NCBI GenBank assembly: GCA_017433855.1
Contig: JAFRGM010000008.1
Location: 1-49,903, forward strand
From: Candidatus Saccharimonadota bacterium
GTDB lineage: Bacteria; Patescibacteriota; Saccharimonadia; Saccharimonadales; Saccharimonadaceae
DNA length: 49,903 bases
Reading direction: 5' to 3'
Position 1 is the stretch's first letter, and each line of letters starts with the position of its first letter. The notes beneath the pieces are model-generated. The model was given only the letters and a program-made list of their open reading frames with translations. It made no database searches and was not told where the DNA came from. Below are positions 33,303 through 43,395 of this stretch, piece after piece. Position numbers and translations under genes: made by a program.

Positions 33303-33715
33303 AGGATGACCTCGCGCGTATTTTCATCGGTATAATTGATATTAATAATATGGTGATGAGGGGGCAGTAGAGATTGGATAGATTCGCCCCATTCAATAAT
33401 GATAATTTGATGAGGATCAGAAAGTTTTTCGGAAAGATCATCTACCATAAGTCCTGGATCTGGCAGGCGATAAAAGTCGTAATGTGTAAGTATGCGACCA
33501 TCGGGTAATGCGTAAGTTTTGGAAATGGTATAGCTTGGGCTGGTGATGGGCTGGTTAATATTAAGACCACGAGCTAGGCCGCGCACAAAAGTAGTTTTGC
33601 CGGCGCCAACATCGCCCACAAGCTCAATAACCGTAGCCTCTGAAGTAGGGGACTTGAGGTTTTTGGCAAAGCTTTTGCCAAAATCTAGCATCTCTTGCTC
33701 GGATTGAATCTTCAT
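33299..33715 (-). CDS. tsaE: TsaE, tRNA threonylcarbamoyladenosine ATPase
   Basis: The 138-residue P-loop ATPase assists t6A synthesis. It has Walker A ELVGDVGAGKTTFVRGLARGL (about 38), ITSPSYTISKTY, HYDFYRL and IIIEWGES. The start at MKIQSEQEMLDFGK gives the normal family length and lies 6 nt after a TATAAT on the minus strand. A longer upstream frame would run through the divergent promoter and into murC and is rejected. tsaB follows with a 4-nt overlap. Confidence 0.93.
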   Translation of the reverse strand: MKIQSEQEMLDFGKSFAKNLKSPTSEATVIELVGDVGAGKTTFVRGLARGLNINQPITSPSYTISKTYALPDGRILTHYDFYRLPDPGLMVDDLSEKLSDPHQIIIIEWGESIQSLLPPHHHIININYTDENTREVIL

Positions 33716-33717
33716 TG

Positions 33718-33727
33718 TATAATTATA
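33718..33727. promoter_or_regulatory. overlapping divergent -10 boxes tsaE / murC
   Basis: TATAAT on the plus strand (33718-33723, for murC) and TATAAT on the minus strand (33727-33722, for tsaE) overlap by 2 bp. Each ends exactly 6 nt before its ATG. Only 14 bp separate the two start codons, so both messages should be leaderless. Confidence 0.75.
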
Positions 33728-33729
33728 GC

Positions 33730-34995
33730 ATGAAAATCTATATTTCTGGAATATCTGGGACCGGGATGGGGCCACTGGCGTTAATGGCAAAACAGGCCGG
33801 GATTGAGGTGTGTGGGTCAGACTTGAATAGGGGTGCGATATATGATGAATTAGTTGATGCTGGCGTAGATGTGGAGATTGGTGAGCAGGACGGAGAGTAT
33901 TTGCAAAGCCAGGCAGAGGGGCTAGATTGGTTTGTGCACACTTCGGCTTTACCGGAAAATCATCCGGAATTAATAATGGCAAAAAAGCTAGGAATCCGAG
34001 TATCTAAGCGAGATGATTTGACGGCTTTTTTGGTAGAAAAGTTGGGACTTAAAATGATTGCGGTTGCCGGAACACATGGCAAAACTACGACAACGGCAAT
34101 GACTGTATGGACGGCGCTAAAACTCGGATTACCGGTAGCGTACATTGTGGGGACGACACTAGGATTTGCGCCAAGTGGGGCGTACCATTTTGGTGATAAG
34201 TATTTTATTTATGAAGCAGATGAATATGACAGGAATTTTTTGAAGTACCATCCGTGGCTAGCGGTAATAACGTGCGTAAGTTATGATCATCCAGATATTT
34301 ATGCCACCGAGGCGGAATATCGTGCGGCATTTGGGCAATTTAAGATGCAAAGTGAGCGCGTAATTGAAGCGGCTGGGGAGGGTACGTTGGTGAGGGGGGT
34401 GAATGTGCCAGTGTTTGAAGCGGATGATTTTAGGTTGGCAGGAGCGGTACGCCGAAAGGATGCAGCGCTAGCTGGGGATGCAATCGGTGTGATGCTGCAG
34501 GATAGTGGTTTTGATGCGGACAAACAGCGAATAGTTGATATATTAAATCAGTTTCCAGGAGTGGGTAGGAGATTTGAAAAACTTGTAGATGGGATATACA
34601 CGGATTATGCGCATCATCCTGAGGAGATTGCGGCTACGGTGGAAATGGCGCGTGAGCAGGCAAAAATTGATGGAAAATCTGGTGTAGTGGTGGTGTATCA
34701 GCCACATCAAAACACAAGACAGCATGAGGTTAGGGACGGATATGTAGATGCGTTTAGTGGAGTAGATAAAATCTATTGGTTGCCGACATATTTGACACGG
34801 GAAAATCCGGCACTAAAAATACTTAGTCCAGCGGATTTGATTGATGGTTTGTCTAATCGCAGCGCAGCGGAAGCGGCGGAGCTGAATGATGAATTGTATG
34901 ATAACATTGTGCGGTGGCGTGACGATGGATATTTGGTGCTACTGATGGCGGCTGGCCCGGCGGATGGATGGTTGCGGGGCAAACTATTGGCTTAG
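33730..34995 (+). CDS. murC: UDP-N-acetylmuramate--L-alanine ligase family (MurC)
   Basis: The 421-residue Mur ligase shows an N-terminal Rossmann domain (MKIYISGISGTGMGPLALMA), the ATP-binding AVAGTHGKTTTT (about 109-120), a central YEADEYDRNFLKYHPWLAVIT, and a C-terminal part with YTDYAHHPEEIAAT and VVYQPHQNTR. MurC adds L-Ala to UDP-MurNAc; Mpl, the murein-peptide ligase, is the close alternative. Together with MurA this supports a self-made peptidoglycan. Leaderless start at 33730, and its stop lies 4 nt from the end of the convergent giant-protein gene. Confidence 0.9.
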   Translation: MKIYISGISGTGMGPLALMAKQAGIEVCGSDLNRGAIYDELVDAGVDVEIGEQDGEYLQSQAEGLDWFVHTSALPENHPELIMAKKLGIRVSKRDDLTAFLVEKLGLKMIAVAGTHGKTTTTAMTVWTALKLGLPVAYIVGTTLGFAPSGAYHFGDKYFIYEADEYDRNFLKYHPWLAVITCVSYDHPDIYATEAEYRAAFGQFKMQSERVIEAAGEGTLVRGVNVPVFEADDFRLAGAVRRKDAALAGDAIGVMLQDSGFDADKQRIVDILNQFPGVGRRFEKLVDGIYTDYAHHPEEIAATVEMAREQAKIDGKSGVVVVYQPHQNTRQHEVRDGYVDAFSGVDKIYWLPTYLTRENPALKILSPADLIDGLSNRSAAEAAELNDELYDNIVRWRDDGYLVLLMAAGPADGWLRGKLLA

Positions 34996-34999
34996 TGTT

Positions 35000-37900
35000 T
35001 TAGTACCTTGGTGCCAATTCATGCTGGTAGACCGTAGTCATAACACTAGATTCGCTAGCCTCAGCCATAGAATGTGCCCAAATTAGAGAAGATGTATCAT
35101 AATTGACTATTTCTGCTGGTGTACCAGATTGATTACCAATCGCATTACCGTAGGTGCGAGCTGGATTAATGGTGTTTGCAATGACAACGCCGTTAATGAC
35201 AAGCTGTGACAGTGAACGTTCACGGCTATTTAGCGCATTTTGTGTTTCTGAGCTATATCCATTGCATGTATGAACCGTGCCACCAGAAATCAGAATCGCA
35301 TCAATCCTACCTACGTTACAGTTGATTCTAATGTCCCCTGCAGCAGATATGATGATTTTTGGTATTTGCGTAGAAGAAGTTAGATTGGTAGAGCGCGCAT
35401 AGATATCGCCAGCGATTGTTATGCTCCCAGTGGCTTTTACGACTCTCGTAGCCATATTTGGCACATTGCCACCACTAATTGTCAAATCACCATTATAATA
35501 TGCATAACGAATATCTTTTCCGGTACCACTTGATGTTTGTGTGCCGACATAGTCTAGAATAATATTGTTAGAGATATTATTAGATGGATTGCTCGGCATG
35601 AAATAATCTACTAATGCCGTGCGGTTTTTTGCGGTATTGGTGTGAATATTTGCATTGCCTGATGCGGAGCCGTTTTGCCCACAGAGTATTCCCCAGTTTG
35701 AACTACTGGAAGTGAAATTTGCGAAAGATAGCGGCACTTGATTCCCACAGAAGTTATATGTTAGTCCACTTCTCGTTGATAAGCCATAAATAGTGTTTGT
35801 GCCAGTTCGTCCTAGCGCGGCGCCCGATGCTAAGTTCCTCACTAAGCCGTTAGCAATAATGCCTTCTTCCACCCATGAACCAAAATATGTTGCGCCGACA
35901 CGGTCTCCAGTATAATTATAGATTCCATATAAATTATATTTTTTTGTTACACCAGTAGACATTTCGCCATTTGAGAAGATTGAGCCACCAAGAACTTGCA
36001 GGGTCGGTTTCTTCACGATACGTGCACATTTTGGTGCAGAAATACGCCACATGCCATCACCATCCATGTTGTAGTAATTGGTATCGGCGCCGCTACTGGC
36101 TGGATAGACGGCGGCAGCAAAACACATGTAATCACCTGCGCTTGCGTCGTAAGCACTGTAGGTGCCATTGAGTGAAACACTGTTTCTGACGCCAGCTAAA
36201 TAGCTATTGGAGTTGAGCCTGCCTGAGTATGTTTCAACGTGGTCATTGCAAAGCCCGGCCTTACTTCCTAGAAAAGCACAGAGATTGTCGCTACGTACTA
36301 CCTGCTCACTACCACCATCTGTAGTGGAAACATAGCCTATGAGTCTAGCTCTAGCATTAGGAACTATAGTGGCATAATCTGCTTCAGTGGCATTATTATA
36401 TCTTGTGCCAACTGTAACATAGGCATTGTATACAGCGATTTCATCACCAGCAAATACTCTGGTACGGTCTATATCTAGAGAAATTGTATTATAGTAGTTA
36501 TATGGGACGTGTACGTAAGAACTATCACTGACGGAGCCACGAGTAGTTCTGCCTATGTTGTAGGTATTACAATGCTTAATGGTATGGTCACAGTCACAGA
36601 CGTCTTTAACGCAACGTGAACATGTGTAGGTGCTTCCGTCCTTATGCGTGCATGTCCTAGATTCGGTATGGTGCGGACAACTGCATGAGCAACAACTCTT
36701 CGTCCAGGAATGGTTGGTATCAATTTCTATAGAAGTTATCGGTTCACTCATTCTTCTGCCGTAACGATTGTCCGTACTAATAAAATCGTTGTAGCTTGTA
36801 CCGACATCACTATTGGTGACTCTGTAGTTATTGGCAATTCCTCGCTTAGTGGTATCGCCAGCGCTGTAAATAAACTCCTTTTGAAACGACGCAACTCTAT
36901 TGCCAGATAAATCATTGAAACCATATGGCGAGGATGTTGTAACGCGATAACCGCTAATCCAATCGAAATCCGTAGCGCTACGAAGTTGGATATAACCATT
37001 ATATGATCCGCAGCCTGGACAGCCGCTTGTTTTGCTGCTATCGTGATATGCCACTTCTGTTCCATTCCATTCTGTTACATTATGATACATATAATATTGT
37101 GCTCCTGGAAAGTAACAGTTTTGCCAGGCCACTACGTCACCCGGCATGGCATAGGTTGCATCATCTTGCCATCCACGATAAGTGCCGGCCAAACGAGTAT
37201 TCTTGGCTTTAGATATAACCGAAGTAATCCCGGAATCAGGACTGTAAGAAGAAAAACCGTGTGGTGCAAGTTCGCCATTTCCACACGTATCTGGCTGGCC
37301 GCCACCTACGATGACTTTGGTGCAGACTTTTGTGAGGGGTGTTAGAGTGCCACCTTTACCTACACTTACAGTTTCGCAAAAGAGATATTGGCCGGCGGTA
37401 CTAAAGCGCACATTGAATGATTCTCGGAAAATGTATTTGCTACCACCCGAGCTATAGCTACGATTCTCGGCGGCATAATAACCATCCTCCGCCACAGTAA
37501 GATTAGCAGTGCCGCTTCCTGCGATTCCAGAACGAAAACCACCATAGTTAGTGCCGCTTCGTTCTACTTTCCAAGATACATTGGAATCTTTTTGGGTAGA
37601 ATAGATATTATGTGAAAAAGTAATTGTGGCGGTTTGGTTTGTGTTGACGACTGCATCGGTGGTGTATACTACCTTGACCGGTGCAGTACCATTGATTCCG
37701 GTAGAAGAGTAGCCACCAACAGCACTGTTGGAAACATTGGATAGTGATAGATATGAAGCGGCGGGTTCTCTAGGAGCACAAAACCACGCTAATGGTCCAC
37801 TGGTGCCATTTTCATCCCAGGTAATTGGATATAATGAACTGCCATATTGCTCGCGCATGTTGTTGTATTGTTCTCGTACATAGTCCATTGGGAAGCCCAT

Positions 37901-38398
37901 TTCATAATATCTAGTATATCCGCCATAGGCTTCAGAGTCATAAAATGAGTTAGCGTTTTGATCGATACCCAAAAGACCCATTTGATGTTCACCATACACC
38001 TGAAGACCATTTTCACTGTCGCCGTAATCATAATCAAACTTAGCTACCATGGCGTAGCGCCAAAAACCATCGCCACGAGCACTACAATCTTGGTCTATTT
38101 TGCCGGCACCAATAAACTGACGATTGCCAGTTGAACCCATAATTTCTAGACTATCGCTCCCGTCGAGGCTAACACGTATACCGTCCTCTAGATAGCCATT
38201 ATTGCGCGCAGTATTCCAATCATACCATTTCCAAGTAGCGCCATAACAAGTAGAGAAAGGGCCATCGCAGGTTGGCGATCCGCCACTACCAGAACCAGTA
38301 CCATAATATGCAGCATGTGCTACATTGCCAAAAATCGTAGTCATTAGTGCAATAATGGCTACCGTAAAAATAGCTCTGTGGTGGTTTTTAATACTCAT
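35000..38398 (-). CDS. giant secreted surface protein (copy A)
   Basis: The 1,132-residue protein starts with a signal peptide (MSIKNHHRAIFTVAIIALM, cleavage after AHA near residue 27). The N-terminal region has YGTGSGSGG and FSTCYGATWKWYDW; next come Ser/Thr/Tyr-rich beta-type segments. A dense cysteine cluster follows (SCCSCSCPHH, TCTHKDGSTYTCSRC, CDCDHTIKHC), then a block RIVKKPTLQVLGGSIFSNG and a bactofilin- or beta-helix-like part (DLTISGG, SITIAGDIYA, DIRINC). The last 53 residues, ending YQHELAPRY, are identical to copy B. Function unknown; an adhesin or envelope fibre is plausible. GGAG precedes the ATG, which overlaps the upstream gene by 11 nt. Confidence 0.85.
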   Translation of the reverse strand: MSIKNHHRAIFTVAIIALMTTIFGNVAHAAYYGTGSGSGGSPTCDGPFSTCYGATWKWYDWNTARNNGYLEDGIRVSLDGSDSLEIMGSTGNRQFIGAGKIDQDCSARGDGFWRYAMVAKFDYDYGDSENGLQVYGEHQMGLLGIDQNANSFYDSEAYGGYTRYYEMGFPMDYVREQYNNMREQYGSSLYPITWDENGTSGPLAWFCAPREPAASYLSLSNVSNSAVGGYSSTGINGTAPVKVVYTTDAVVNTNQTATITFSHNIYSTQKDSNVSWKVERSGTNYGGFRSGIAGSGTANLTVAEDGYYAAENRSYSSGGSKYIFRESFNVRFSTAGQYLFCETVSVGKGGTLTPLTKVCTKVIVGGGQPDTCGNGELAPHGFSSYSPDSGITSVISKAKNTRLAGTYRGWQDDATYAMPGDVVAWQNCYFPGAQYYMYHNVTEWNGTEVAYHDSSKTSGCPGCGSYNGYIQLRSATDFDWISGYRVTTSSPYGFNDLSGNRVASFQKEFIYSAGDTTKRGIANNYRVTNSDVGTSYNDFISTDNRYGRRMSEPITSIEIDTNHSWTKSCCSCSCPHHTESRTCTHKDGSTYTCSRCVKDVCDCDHTIKHCNTYNIGRTTRGSVSDSSYVHVPYNYYNTISLDIDRTRVFAGDEIAVYNAYVTVGTRYNNATEADYATIVPNARARLIGYVSTTDGGSEQVVRSDNLCAFLGSKAGLCNDHVETYSGRLNSNSYLAGVRNSVSLNGTYSAYDASAGDYMCFAAAVYPASSGADTNYYNMDGDGMWRISAPKCARIVKKPTLQVLGGSIFSNGEMSTGVTKKYNLYGIYNYTGDRVGATYFGSWVEEGIIANGLVRNLASGAALGRTGTNTIYGLSTRSGLTYNFCGNQVPLSFANFTSSSSNWGILCGQNGSASGNANIHTNTAKNRTALVDYFMPSNPSNNISNNIILDYVGTQTSSGTGKDIRYAYYNGDLTISGGNVPNMATRVVKATGSITIAGDIYARSTNLTSSTQIPKIIISAAGDIRINCNVGRIDAILISGGTVHTCNGYSSETQNALNSRERSLSQLVINGVVIANTINPARTYGNAIGNQSGTPAEIVNYDTSSLIWAHSMAEASESSVMTTVYQHELAPRY
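35007..35162 (-). repeat. 156-bp inverted repeat, left arm
   Basis: This segment is the reverse complement of 43225-43380 with 154 of 156 positions identical; the differences are synonymous. It encodes the C-terminal end of copy A. Outside this arm the two genes are clearly diverged, so recent gene conversion or inversion is likely. Confidence 0.95.
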
Positions 38399-39254
38399 TG
38401 TTTTCTCCATAAATTGACTCGTATAATGAACCGTATTGTATTTGGTACCATTCGCCAGTTGCACTATCACCTTCGGCGTAACTGATTTTGGCCATCGCAT
38501 TAAAGTAATCTAATCTTTGTTCGTTGTCTAGTTTTTCAGTATCAATGGCCTCTGCTACGGCTAGTGCGGCTGCTGAGTCACCCATGCGTAAATACTGGAA
38601 GATTAAAGTCATTCGCGTACCAAACTCGGCCGTAGTGCCAGTATATTCTTGTAATTTTGTGTTAAGATATTCTACGGCTTCTTGTTGAGGTAGGCTTTCG
38701 GCTTCGGCTACCATATCCTCAATTACGGTGGGGAGATTTTCTATGACAGTTTCACCACTTGATGTTTCACCGTCACCATCACCATCTGGACATGTACTGG
38801 GTTTGCCGCTAGTATCGGCATCTGAATCAGCACTGGTATCAGAGCTGCTCTGCTCGTTGCTAGTATTACTCACAATGACAACGCCAGCAACTAAACCACC
38901 TAAGATTAGGACTGTTGCGATAATAATAATAGCGATAAGATATTTCTTGTGAGATTTTGGCTGAGAGGCAGAATTACTAGTTTTGAGGCGAGAAGGACTT
39001 TTACCACGACCGCTAAACATTTTAGTGAAAATGTTACGCGTTCGTGCTTTTTTCTTAGGGTTGGAATTGGGTGAGGGCAATTGCTGCGACGTTACAGTTG
39101 GCTGACTAGTGTTGTCTAGAGATTGGTTATTGATGGCTTTGCCGATTCTATCACGCAGAGTTTTACGCGCACGCGCATTAGCCTCAATCCGTTCTTGTAC
39201 AGATTTAGGTTTATTAACCGGCACTCCAGAATTATCAGTATTACTCTCCGCCAT
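38388..39254 (-). CDS. membrane-anchored protein with helical-repeat external domain (copy A)
   Basis: The 288-residue protein begins MAESNTDNSG. A basic, disordered cytoplasmic region (about 1-110: ERIEANARARKTLRDRIGKA, IFTKMFSGRGKSPSRLK) is followed by one membrane helix (KKYLIAIIIIATVLILGGLV, about 112-135) and a Ser/Asp/Gly linker (CPDGDGDGE). The helical, TPR-like external part contains EYLNTKLQEYTGTTAEFGTRMTL and AEGDSATGEWYQIQYGSLYESIYG. It is paralogous to the plus-strand gene at 39373 and always directly precedes a giant protein, so they may act as a pair. Leaderless start. Confidence 0.8.
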   Translation of the reverse strand: MAESNTDNSGVPVNKPKSVQERIEANARARKTLRDRIGKAINNQSLDNTSQPTVTSQQLPSPNSNPKKKARTRNIFTKMFSGRGKSPSRLKTSNSASQPKSHKKYLIAIIIIATVLILGGLVAGVVIVSNTSNEQSSSDTSADSDADTSGKPSTCPDGDGDGETSSGETVIENLPTVIEDMVAEAESLPQQEAVEYLNTKLQEYTGTTAEFGTRMTLIFQYLRMGDSAAALAVAEAIDTEKLDNEQRLDYFNAMAKISYAEGDSATGEWYQIQYGSLYESIYGENNEY

Positions 39255-39260
39255 AATCTT

Positions 39261-39266
39261 ATTATA
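39261..39266 (-). promoter_or_regulatory. -10 box of copy A operon
   Basis: TATAAT on the minus strand ends 6 nt before the ATG at 39254. Confidence 0.65.
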
Positions 39267-39372
39267 GCATAAAAAATTATCAAAAGCATTTAACATTTTC
39301 ACTAAAATATTTAGTGTTAATGCCGAAAAGAAGCATGTTAGACGACCAAAACTTACAAAAAATACTAAATGG

Positions 39373-39975
39373 TTGATTGTTATAATAACTTTGACTTTTT
39401 GTGTAGTCGGTAGCTTGACGGCGATTGTGATTAGTACGTTTAATACTAACCAAACGCAGGAAGAGTTGGCGGACGAGGAAGATGGTGGTGGTTGTCCAAT
39501 GGACGAAGATGGGGATTCCATCGTGGAAGATGATGAGGAAGCACAACAGAATATTACGAATATACTTAATGAGTTGAACGAGATGAGCGTTGGCGACTCA
39601 ATAGAATATCTTAATGAGAAGCTTGATGAGTATACGGGGACCAGCACGGAATTTGGTGTGCGAGAGACATTGATATACTTACTGATTCGCAACGGTGATA
39701 ATAATGCAGCTTTAGAATATTTAGAACAGATTGAGCCTGAGTCTTTGTCTGGTAAACAGTTTCTGGACTATTATGCAATGTATTACAAGACATATTCAGC
39801 TCTTGGAGAGGAGGAGACAGCGAATATCTATATGAATCAATATGCTGCTTTGTACGATGCTCTATATTGGGATACTGCACAGGATTATATTGACGAATAT
39901 ACTGCTGAAGAATATGATGACGAATGGATTGAGGGTGAAACTATAATAATAGAAGGGGAAAGACAGGATGAATAG
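39373..39975 (+). CDS. paralogue of the helical-repeat protein (copy B), 5'-truncated
   Basis: From 39373 (TTG) the frame gives 200 residues: a membrane helix (LIVIITLTFCVVGSLTAIVIS), an acidic linker (GGGCPMDEDGDS) and a TPR-like part matching copy A (EYLNEKLDEYTGTSTEFGVRETLIYLLIRNG, NIYMNQYAALYDALY), plus an acidic C-terminal extension. Homology continues upstream of any start codon: in-frame codons from 39289 read FNIFTKIFS, matching IFTKMFS of copy A. A TAG at 39265 closes the frame and no ATG exists between, so the N-terminal part has been lost. Translation may begin at a TTG or be impaired. The giant-protein ATG overlaps its stop by 8 nt. Confidence 0.65.
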   Translation: MIVIITLTFCVVGSLTAIVISTFNTNQTQEELADEEDGGGCPMDEDGDSIVEDDEEAQQNITNILNELNEMSVGDSIEYLNEKLDEYTGTSTEFGVRETLIYLLIRNGDNNAALEYLEQIEPESLSGKQFLDYYAMYYKTYSALGEEETANIYMNQYAALYDALYWDTAQDYIDEYTAEEYDDEWIEGETIIIEGERQDE

Positions 39976-42900
39976 AGGAAGACTCTTTAGCGTTATGGTA
40001 TTATTAATGCTGGCGGTGATGTGCCTATGTTCTAGTGATGCCTATGCTGATTATACTGGTACTGGTACTGGACAGGGTGGTTTTGCTGGGTGCCAGGGTC
40101 CACTCTCGACGTGTTATGGGGCGGCATGGCAGTGGTATAGCTTTAGGGATATTCAGGCTGGATTACATGAAAAGGACGGTATCTTCTATAATGGTAACAA
40201 TACATATACTATTACTGGTACTGTAAGTAGTTTACGCTCATTCGCAAGGGGGACGACTATTAATGTTGATGGTAGCTATGGGAGCTGTAGTGATTCAGAT
40301 TTTGGTTTATGGCGCTACGCGATGTATGCGATGCGTGACTATAAGTATGGGGCGCAAGAAAATTATTTGCAGGTTTATGGAAATCGCCAGGTTGGCGTAG
40401 TTGGTATTGATAGCAATCCGGACTTTGTGTTTGACTCTCAATATTATGGGGGTGCTATGAATTATATTGATGGTATTGGCAAAACGATGGATGATGCGTG
40501 GGAGCAATACAATTGGGCGCAGAAAACTTTTCCGGGCGAATACAATATAAACTGGAACAAAATCTCTGGTGCGGATGGACCGCTTGCTTGGTTTTGCGCT
40601 CCAGAAAAACCCGATGGCGAGGTTAATTATTACACAGAGTCGTTGGTAAATTATGATAATAGTTCTTATAAAAGTACCGGTATTAATGGTGCGCAGCCAG
40701 TGAAAACTGTTTACGTCAATAAGTCGATTGAAGTTAATAACTACGTTGCGGTAAATTTTAGACATAATTTATATGCGAATTATGCAGCGCAAGGGGTACA
40801 GTATGATATAGAGAGAAGTACTTCAATTCCTAGCTATGGTGCTTATGATAGTGATCCTGGTTTTAATATTTATGGTGGGTATGAATATAGTAACACTAAT
40901 ACGACAGATTTCTCAGTGTCAAAAAATAGCTACTATGTGCCTTCTCTGCAAGCGACGAGGGGATATTTTATACAAGATTCTTATAGAATGATCTTTTATG
41001 CGGAGGGAACGTATGAATTTTGTGAAAAAGTGGTGGTTGAGGGTGCTGGCTATGATGAGGAATCTCGTAGCAGTAAGCCATTAACTCAATCGTGTATTAG
41101 AATTATAGCATATCGTAAGAATACTTTTAATTCCGCTGTCTGCGGAAAAGGTGGCGAGCTTGGCACATATACACCAAGCTCTGGTACGACTTGGGTGCTC
41201 TCAAAGGCCAATAATAGTAGATTGAGGACGCTTTATAGCGGATGGAAGGAGAAGGTTTATGCGATGCCTGGTGACATGGTGGCTTGGACGAATTGTTATT
41301 TTCCGGGTGCGCAATTTTACGCCAACTATGGCGTAACTGAAATAAAGGGCTATGGAGGTGTAGTAGGTAAGCACGGTCAAGAAAAGTATTGCGGATGTAC
41401 GTCCAATACTTACAAAACTTATAAGGACTATACGACTTTTGATTGGACCAATAAATATCAGGTAAGAACGTCATCTCCATGGGGCCTAAATAATATGTCT
41501 GGTGGTGGGTGGTATGCAAATATGCAAGATTTTGGTATGTACGCTGTAGGCGATACGACATCTAGGGACACGAGGAATAATTATAAGATTAGATACAATG
41601 ATGATGTTGGTAAGGAGTTTTACGATACAATCTCTACTGATTCAAACCCAATATCGGCTGGTTGGTACGCTGAAAATCACCCATGGCACTGGCAATGTTG
41701 CTCGTGTAAATGCGGCTGTAGGAGCTATACTTGCCGTACAAGGAACGGTGGCACTAGAACGTGTCGTACGCCAGTGGGCTGTCAATGTGATCATACAATT
41801 TATCATTGCAATACTTACAATGTTGGTAATCCAACTTTAGGCACAGACTCAAAAACGTCCACCGTGGTTGTACCATATAATTATGTTAATACTGTGAGTT
41901 TGACGCTGGGTAGTGGTGATGTATATGCTGGCGAAACGATTTCGGTAACTAAAGCAAGTGTTACCACTGAAACGAGGTATAATGAAGCGACGGAGAATGA
42001 ATATGCGACGATTGTACGTGATGCAAAAATGAAGTTAACGGCGTATATTTCGGACACGAATACCGGTACTGAGCAAGTGAGTAATAGATATGGCGACGAA
42101 ATATGTAAGTATTTTACGAGTAAACAATGTGCAGAGGTAGATAGCAGGACGCAAAATTTAAACACTGGCGATAATGAAGATAGTCTGCGTGGCGATACGA
42201 CAAATGTATTTGCAGGCTCTTATAACGTTTTTGATGCGAGTGCCGGCGATTATATGTGTTTTGTGATGTCAGTATTTCCAGCAACGAGTGGTGATGATTT
42301 AAATACAGCTGTTTCTGGTGACGGAATGTGGAGAATTTCAGCTCCGCAGTGTAGATTGATTGTAAAAAAGCCGAGTATGCAGGTTTTGGGTGGGAGTGTT
42401 TTTTCGAATGGTGCTATCAATACCTATAATACTATATCAACTAAGCATAATTTATTTAATATCAGCAATTATTATCCGCATAATGCAGGTGCAACATATT
42501 TTGGTTCGTGGGTAGAAGAGGCGGTAATTGCAAATGGTGTTGTTAATGGTTTGGCGTCTGGTGCGGCGTTGGGGCGAAGCGGCACAAATACTATTTATGG
42601 CTTATCTGCTCCGTATGACTTTTGTAAAAATCAAGTGCCTTTGTCGTTTGCTAATTTTAGCGCAGCTAGTACTGAGCTTGGGCAGATTTGTGGACAAGGT
42701 GCTGATTCTGCGGGTAAGGCAAATATTCATACTAATACCGCGATTAATCGCACCGCGTTACTGAACTATTTTTTGCCGAGCAATTTGACGGATGCTGGCG
42801 TTAGCAGTGTAACTTTAGGATACGATGAGGGTGTGCAGATTGCAAGCGGTACTGGAAAGGATATTAGATATGTTTATCACGACGGCGATTTGACGGTCAC

Positions 42901-43387
42901 CGGTGGCAGTATTGTGCCGAACAGTACCAGAATCGTAAAAGCTAACGGTAACATTATGATTAGCAATAGTATAGCTGTGAGAGGTGAGGGCATTGATACG
43001 GCGACGAAGGTACCAAAAGTGGTGATTTATGCTGCAGGGGATATCAAAATTGACTGCAGTGTGGCACAGGTGGATGCGATTTTGATAGCGGGTGGAACAG
43101 TGTATACTTGTGGTAGTTATACTGCGGCGAACGTTACGTCGAGTACTAGTAATGCGGAATTAAGGATGCGTTCGCAGAAGCAGTTGGTAATAAATGGAAT
43201 AGTAATTGCCGACAAGGTGGAGCTAGCTCGCACCTACGGTAATGCGATTGGTAATCAATCTGGTACACCAGCAGAAATAGTCAATTATGATACATCTTCT
43301 CTAATTTGGGCACATTCTATGGCTGAAGCTAGCGAATCTAGTGTTATGACTACGGTCTACCAACATGAATTGGCACCAAGATATTAA
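39968..43387 (+). CDS. giant secreted surface protein (copy B)
   Basis: The 1,139-residue paralogue of copy A has a signal peptide (MNRGRLFSVMVLLMLAVMCL, cleavage near AYA, residue 27), then YTGTGTGQGGFAGCQGPLSTCYGAAWQWYSF. It has the same cysteine cluster (CCSCKCGC, YTCRTRNGG, CQCDHTIYHC), the block RLIVKKPSMQVLGGSVFSNG, SGAALGRSGTNTIYGL and beta-helix-like DLTVTGG / DIKIDC segments. Its end YQHELAPRY is identical to copy A. The shared block order shows duplication. Many cysteines suggest disulfide-stabilised extracellular domains, for which the DsbA-like protein could act. No anchor such as LPXTG is seen. Function unknown. Confidence 0.85.
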   Translation: MNRGRLFSVMVLLMLAVMCLCSSDAYADYTGTGTGQGGFAGCQGPLSTCYGAAWQWYSFRDIQAGLHEKDGIFYNGNNTYTITGTVSSLRSFARGTTINVDGSYGSCSDSDFGLWRYAMYAMRDYKYGAQENYLQVYGNRQVGVVGIDSNPDFVFDSQYYGGAMNYIDGIGKTMDDAWEQYNWAQKTFPGEYNINWNKISGADGPLAWFCAPEKPDGEVNYYTESLVNYDNSSYKSTGINGAQPVKTVYVNKSIEVNNYVAVNFRHNLYANYAAQGVQYDIERSTSIPSYGAYDSDPGFNIYGGYEYSNTNTTDFSVSKNSYYVPSLQATRGYFIQDSYRMIFYAEGTYEFCEKVVVEGAGYDEESRSSKPLTQSCIRIIAYRKNTFNSAVCGKGGELGTYTPSSGTTWVLSKANNSRLRTLYSGWKEKVYAMPGDMVAWTNCYFPGAQFYANYGVTEIKGYGGVVGKHGQEKYCGCTSNTYKTYKDYTTFDWTNKYQVRTSSPWGLNNMSGGGWYANMQDFGMYAVGDTTSRDTRNNYKIRYNDDVGKEFYDTISTDSNPISAGWYAENHPWHWQCCSCKCGCRSYTCRTRNGGTRTCRTPVGCQCDHTIYHCNTYNVGNPTLGTDSKTSTVVVPYNYVNTVSLTLGSGDVYAGETISVTKASVTTETRYNEATENEYATIVRDAKMKLTAYISDTNTGTEQVSNRYGDEICKYFTSKQCAEVDSRTQNLNTGDNEDSLRGDTTNVFAGSYNVFDASAGDYMCFVMSVFPATSGDDLNTAVSGDGMWRISAPQCRLIVKKPSMQVLGGSVFSNGAINTYNTISTKHNLFNISNYYPHNAGATYFGSWVEEAVIANGVVNGLASGAALGRSGTNTIYGLSAPYDFCKNQVPLSFANFSAASTELGQICGQGADSAGKANIHTNTAINRTALLNYFLPSNLTDAGVSSVTLGYDEGVQIASGTGKDIRYVYHDGDLTVTGGSIVPNSTRIVKANGNIMISNSIAVRGEGIDTATKVPKVVIYAAGDIKIDCSVAQVDAILIAGGTVYTCGSYTAANVTSSTSNAELRMRSQKQLVINGIVIADKVELARTYGNAIGNQSGTPAEIVNYDTSSLIWAHSMAEASESSVMTTVYQHELAPRY
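43225..43380 (+). repeat. 156-bp inverted repeat, right arm
   Basis: Reverse complement of 35007-35162 with two mismatches, covering the C-terminal codons of copy B. The 8.1-kb segment between the arms carries both divergent operons. Confidence 0.95.
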
Positions 43388-43395
43388 AACGATGC

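Follow-up and report, generated by a model that had tools for sequence, protein, structure and literature searches.

Recently homogenised 3' ends in a divergent pair of giant secreted-protein genes from a Saccharibacteria genome

How do two giant genes that are well diverged over most of their length come to share almost the same DNA at their outer, oppositely oriented ends, and does this arrangement act as a switch? The question arises from the window analysed here, a stretch of 49,903 nucleotides from a Candidatus Saccharimonadota bacterium that forms contig 7 of a 596-kb, 11-contig genome assembly (completeness 85.8%). A murC-like gene and radA bracket two divergent two-gene operons, in each of which a small gene (one transmembrane segment, TPR-like part) is followed by the gene for a giant secreted protein, A or B:

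33715 to 34995, plus strand: murC-like Mur ligase gene, left flank and conserved neighbour (TIGR01082, E 3e-70)
34997 to 35162, minus strand: left arm, formed by the 3' end of giant gene A and the 3 bp after its stop codon
35000 to 38398, minus strand: giant secreted protein A (open reading frame from 38500; placed in the family by profile match)
38388 to 39254, minus strand: small gene of operon A, with one transmembrane segment and a TPR-like C-terminal part (start placed by eye)
39255 to 39372, no strand: stretch between the divergent operons
39373 to 39975, plus strand: small gene of operon B, its frame open further upstream
39968 to 43387, plus strand: giant secreted protein B, 1139 amino acids, ending HELAPRY
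42800 to 43384, plus strand: C-terminal domain of B, a predicted beta-solenoid
43225 to 43390, plus strand: right arm, formed by the 3' end of giant gene B and the 3 bp after its stop codon
43408 to 44757, plus strand: radA, right flank (TIGR00416, E 1e-155, above cut-off)

The murC-like gene scores below the curated cut-off of TIGR01082 (237.5 against 335.1 bits) and may encode another type of Mur ligase; in most relatives it adjoins radA or a giant gene. The radA product is 81-94% identical to its 80 best named relatives, 79 of which are from Candidatus Saccharibacteria, mostly of the ruminant gut. Counted from its first ATG, the open reading frame of A (35000-38500, minus strand) encodes 1166 amino acids, and the likely start is the Met at 38398, where a signal-peptide-like segment can be read to follow. 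The small proteins of the two operons are 36% identical. Since the operons diverge from the centre, both promoters must lie within the inter-operon stretch; a putative extended -10-like element, TGCTATAAT, is discernible by eye immediately ahead of the ATG that opens the minus-strand small gene at 39254. Between 39255 and 39400 the frame of the small gene of operon B extends toward the start of operon A and includes a segment, NIFTK, that is homologous to small protein A; this upstream open part contains no ATG, GTG or TTG, and may reflect a rare start, a frameshift or a 5' truncation. GC skew is close to zero over operon A (35001-39000) and about 0.2-0.35 across most of the remaining window, in keeping with genes on the opposite strand, and was not taken as a sign of a recent flip.

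Near-identical inverted ends of the two giant genes

The sequence-only reading of this locus had described two giant proteins, well diverged apart from their ends, and an inverted repeat of 156 bp with 154 matches. Both open reading frames were confirmed, and the repeat proved slightly longer: 34997-35162 matches 43225-43390 in inverted orientation at 162 of 166 bases, continuing 3 bp beyond both stop codons, with four mismatches that are all synonymous and in third codon positions. These two are the only tail matches within their own assembly, at its 85.8% completeness. Over 1177 aligned columns the giant proteins are 47% identical, and the synonymous identity of their bodies is 0.47, the sites being near-saturated. 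The inner edge of the match is sharp, identity falling to 21/30, then 18/30, then background immediately upstream.

Conservation of the protein ending is a genuine feature of the family, P and R of the ELAPRY-like terminus being invariant across 26 aligned tails, and one might suppose that selection on this C-terminal end alone keeps the DNA alike. We give that explanation virtually no weight. Of the 51 tail codons for identical residues other than Met or Trp, 47 are identical, whereas outside the tail the two genes use the same codon at 208 of 479 identical-residue sites (43%; binomial P = 2.6e-13); most other within-genome pairs keep the motif at their tails and yet have saturated synonymous sites. 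Identity at tail synonymous sites, set against saturation in the bodies, means that selection on the protein cannot by itself account for the tail. The ELAPRY terminus, which the sequence-only reading had offered as a possible functional motif for export or anchoring, is a conserved family ending, from which a few other members deviate (for example SQRF and STRF in G162 and G166), and both protein selection on the end and homogenisation of the DNA apply to it.

We conclude that the 3' ends of A and B were recently homogenised through DNA recombination, either gene conversion or a tail-swapping crossover, as the sequence-only reading had proposed; tail synonymous sites are mostly identical in a pair otherwise saturated, and similar events are found in other species. 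An assembly artefact, whether a mis-join or a consensus repeat, is a very improbable source of the match. The genome is fragmented and the contigs of several relatives break in this same tail, but the two tails carry four fixed differences and their longest common exact run is 102 bp, so that an assembler using k above 102 can resolve the repeat. Moreover, the divergent layout was assembled independently in three other genomes (G025, G162, G166) and, across contigs, in G116.

Shared tails and exchanged bodies among relatives

A family profile built from 26 C-terminal domains was searched in 174 genomes of the genus and detected giant genes in 160 of them, including 108 of the 110 good ones; across this ruminant-gut Saccharibacteria genus its presence is close to universal. 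It evolves far faster than the genes around it, as in G006, whose identity to the window is 93% for radA, 68% for the murC-like gene and 34% for the giant protein. Dispersed copies recur beside the same housekeeping genes, namely clpP-tyrS, metG and an aspS-like gene (L107, L099, L101, L117 and others), these names having been assigned by reading translations; judged by gene context, the sites are apparently recurrent insertion slots. The majority of the 80 named radA loci have one giant copy. Tandem giant genes occur at several (e.g. L143, L166, L183, L196), the divergent layout of the window at two (L168 and L177, with the same gene lengths as G166 and G162), and at 11 nothing separates radA from the murC-like gene, whose end is no more than 100 bp away (L134, L142, L144, L146, L148, L160, L165, L169, L174, L184, L195). 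The locus of G025 is also divergent, and that of G116, assembled across contigs, is very probably a fifth such case. G028 was considered as a further one and rejected: its murC contig ends near the gene, and no tail was found there.

Sixty regions from genomes with at least two giant copies provided 44 within-genome pairs from 36 genomes. Tracts of at least 100 bp at 95% identity or more were present in 10 of the 44 pairs, corresponding to 10 of the 36 multi-copy genomes (examples being 553/553, 890/891 and 475/479 bp); the remaining 34 pairs had none, which implies that exchange is sporadic. Six tracts (in G196, G199, G026, G166, G183 and G003) stop 37-103 bp short of the gene end, so the very end is not always included, and the G165 tract occupies -838 to -520 instead of the end of the gene. 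Several other pairs, among them G112 (418/460), G009 and G201, fell under the 95% rule and were not counted. In G116, tail stretches match at 93.8% over 259 bp in inverted orientation and at 95.4% over 197 bp. When copies from different genomes were compared, 40 of 2882 pairs had a common tract of 100 bp or more, and the long, nearly identical tracts belonged to sister-species groups.

Within each of G047, G054 and G058, contig ends share exactly 141 bp of tail, G047 being already among the tract genomes; the largest k of MEGAHIT is 141, and the exact sharing looks like an assembler word length. Contig-end pairs in G053 and G100, with just 55 and 25 bp of exact sharing, were not counted as near-identical. 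Upstream of radA, 26 contigs begin within 10 kb; seven of these starts are 132-228 bp from the gene, at the tail or inside it, and six of the seven have a detectable tail frame. Contigs that break in tails in this way indicate that assemblies probably under-report near-identical tails.

These data bear directly on the proposal that recombination between the arms inverts the 8.1-kb segment as a programmed antigen or ligand switch, changing the protein made. That the arms are near-identical and inverted would favour such a device, and inverted repeats do flank a segment as in known invertible elements. However, each arm is the 3' coding end of a giant gene, and the promoters must be located between the two operons; inversion would therefore alter neither protein nor promoter, and no change of promoter or reading frame follows from it. 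We also rejected a special tie between near-identical tails and the inverted layout: they occur in 2 of 4 divergent pairs, and likewise in 3 of 12 tandem and 5 of 28 dispersed ones, two of the four fully assembled divergent pairs (G025, G162) being without them. Tail identity arises from general recombination and not from an inversion switch; phase variation by inversion is not supported, and a programmed switch, in our assessment, has only a slim chance of being correct.

Inversion as an occasional event is another matter, and here the earlier claim gains indirect support from a reciprocal left/right swap of bodies between two related species with divergent loci, a swap that may also be cited in favour of a switch. 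Tail and body trees were computed with FastTree from one genome per species, mostly fragmented metagenome assemblies. In G123, G162, G166 and G201, tails group by genome and bodies do not. In the tail tree, the left and right copies of G162 pair with each other, as do those of G166; in the body tree, the left copy of G162 groups with the right copy of G166 (support 1.0), scoring 978 bits against it and 276 against the left. The right body of G162 scores 461 bits against G166 left and 331 against G166 right, but these two are not direct sisters in the body tree (node supports 0.0 and 0.98), which leaves the pairwise scores as the basis for the second half of the swap. The outer genes keep their positions in both genomes. 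This pattern matches what a tail-to-tail inversion predicts, and judging from these sequences one such event probably happened. Exact in-register sharing between tails is short (at most 5 bases in G162, 83 in G166), which makes it unlikely that the swap stems from mis-assembly. G043 and G101 keep the body order in their tandem pairs, and each of the two G201 bodies groups with its counterparts there, again in the same order. In the window pair, tails and bodies both group together, the bodies of A and B being mutual closest relatives (support 1.0), and no body swap is therefore demonstrated for this genome.

Replacement of bodies is most evident at the clpP-tyrS slot of three close relatives, G055, G190 and G195, whose radA genes are 94.7-95.8% identical. 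Identity between G195 and G190 is 0.89-0.97 from -1250 to -500, drops to 0.37-0.59 between roughly -350 and +1900 of the giant open reading frame, and returns to 0.85-0.99 from +2050 onward; in the slot comparison as a whole, G195 spans 0.89-0.99, 0.32-0.59 and at least 0.85 in these three segments. G055 and G190 are 0.85-1.00 identical throughout. Thus a 2.5-kb cassette, comprising the small gene and about two-thirds of the giant gene, was evidently replaced as one block in G195, with flanks and 3' third remaining about 95% identical to the close relatives. The replaced body scores higher against radA-slot copies (312, 254 and 253 bits) than against those of its own slot (179 and 178); no donor was identified in the comparison of giant copies. 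Giant genes are present in six of the seven radA-slot pairs with radA at least 90% identical: one pair shows uniform similarity (0.95), two show even divergence (0.75-0.76), and three are mosaic. These observations suggest that the shared end may allow very different protein bodies to be exchanged. What variation these genomes reveal is body replacement anchored on the 3' part, known between species only, and not an inversion switch.

The same observations could be read differently for the window itself, as a recent duplication after which an imported and divergent allele took the place of one body, so that the tail is what escaped replacement. G195 provides a precedent for replacement with the 3' part kept, and the sharp edge of the tract within the window's genes would be expected. 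Yet the bodies of A and B are sisters with support of 1.0, better fitted by an old duplication with later conversion of the tail, and no duplicated sequence remains outside the arms. We consider this history unlikely, though deserving of more weight than either a switch or an artefact.

Predicted fold and association with type IV pili

Searches of A and B against Pfam and NCBIfam gave no usable family, and a sequence search of the PDB no match. The C-terminal domain of B, by contrast with the full-length protein (pLDDT 58, a poor model), was modelled with a mean pLDDT of 80.8 as a predicted beta-solenoid. Its top Foldseek match is ComZ (6qvi; E 4.3e-3, probability 1.00, a modest TM of 0.39), and VIA-align places the domain with solenoids at Z 7-9; DUF3494 ice-binding solenoids (Z up to 9.1) outscore ComZ there (Z 7.2), which makes the fold class firmer than the relationship. 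The Foldseek list for the full-length model (Ig-like assemblies, TM about 0.1) was discarded, that model being poor. ComZ is described, in the available part of PMC6561018, as a competence pilin whose proposed position is the tip of the pilus.

Gene context points in a similar direction. In at least 20 genomes a giant gene is followed, at a distance of 1 kb or less, by a minor-pilin gene of the same orientation, a lower bound from coordinates read by hand (G005, G013, G017, G029, G031, G032, G037, G039, G040, G057, G059, G105, G107, G124, G136, G141, G184, G191, G209, G210); in G011 the distance is 2.06 kb. The minor pilin was found in 158 of 174 genomes, and in the window's own genome the pilin operon is on contig 1, without a giant gene. 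At one locus (L253, G011 contig 7, 6000-22000) a DivIC-like gene, a small transmembrane protein and a family gene precede minor-pilin genes; two stretches there translate as X. Near the start of the window, at 321-707, a short open reading frame bears a type IV prepilin N-terminal motif that passes the Pfam cut-off; a further pilus gene is thus present on this contig. On the basis of operon context and predicted fold, the giant proteins probably work with type IV pili, at the pilus tip or in the minor-pilin complex, and we infer that A and B are pilus-tip adhesins.

In Nanosynbacter lyticus TM7x, one type IV pilus tethers the host, pilus proteins of Saccharibacteria carry large C-terminal domains, and PilX2, a pilin with such a domain, is a proposed adhesin, according to the available part of PMC12206443. 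The giant proteins resemble Thermus ComZ in their solenoid domain, for which it is the best Foldseek match, and the PilX2/PilY1-type candidates of TM7x in that relatives place a giant gene beside minor-pilin genes. Unlike these, they carry a Sec-like signal but show no prepilin motif (Pfam N_methyl matched neither A nor B, its matches in their own genome lying elsewhere), they lack a Pfam pilin or PilY1 match (none of PilY1/PilC type in 18 family members, the full-length model being poor), and they possess a large N-terminal body without clear relative.

Recombination and host recognition

Taken as a whole, we consider it probable that the locus reflects paralog tails homogenised by recombination, exchange of bodies with constraint on the C-terminal end, and a role in the pilus, rather than a programmed inversion switch. 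The conserved 3' part would act as a homology block for general (RecA-type) recombination, through which a slot would acquire bodies from other slots or from incoming DNA; where the layout is divergent, some of the crossovers would invert the whole pair, with neither protein changed. The conserved C-terminal solenoid would dock to the pilus, the variable body would bind, perhaps to the host bacterium, and 3' identity would be the trace of ongoing exchange together with constraint on the C-terminal domain.

Precedents exist in unrelated systems. The bab and hom paralogs of Helicobacter pylori undergo gene conversion between loci, giving chimeric genes (PMC4552749, available part); like babA/babB/babC and hom as described there, the giant genes are surface paralogs at two or more loci with a variable part and a highly similar C-terminal region. 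As in that system, one part has a within-genome identity, synonymous sites included, that exceeds the remainder, and tail and body trees differ (in the four genomes named above). The proteins are unrelated, however, the 5' end of the giant genes is not homogenised, and their loci include an inverted back-to-back pair and the link to pilin operons. Inverted repeats at surface-protein genes with an invertible segment between are shared with Ureaplasma mba/UU172 (PMC3047005, available part), where inversion switches expression, whereas the repeats of the giant genes are 3' ends and their inversion would be silent. A search of the available literature for gene conversion in Saccharibacteria, or by title in the candidate phyla radiation, found no report; a paper found under antigenic variation (PMC12102498) concerns, in its available part, a type IV secretion system.

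Tentatively, and as a possibility on which we would not yet rely, the slots at murC-radA, clpP-tyrS, metG, aspS and the minor-pilin operon may house interchangeable recognition proteins linked to the pilus, with the C-terminal docking domain as their recombination anchor. If this is true, swapping or importing bodies together with the small partner gene would be a means by which an obligate epibiont changes the host bacterium that it grips. For host recognition and host change in the ultrasmall epibionts of the Patescibacteria, the giant family offers a concrete, testable candidate for determinants of host range.
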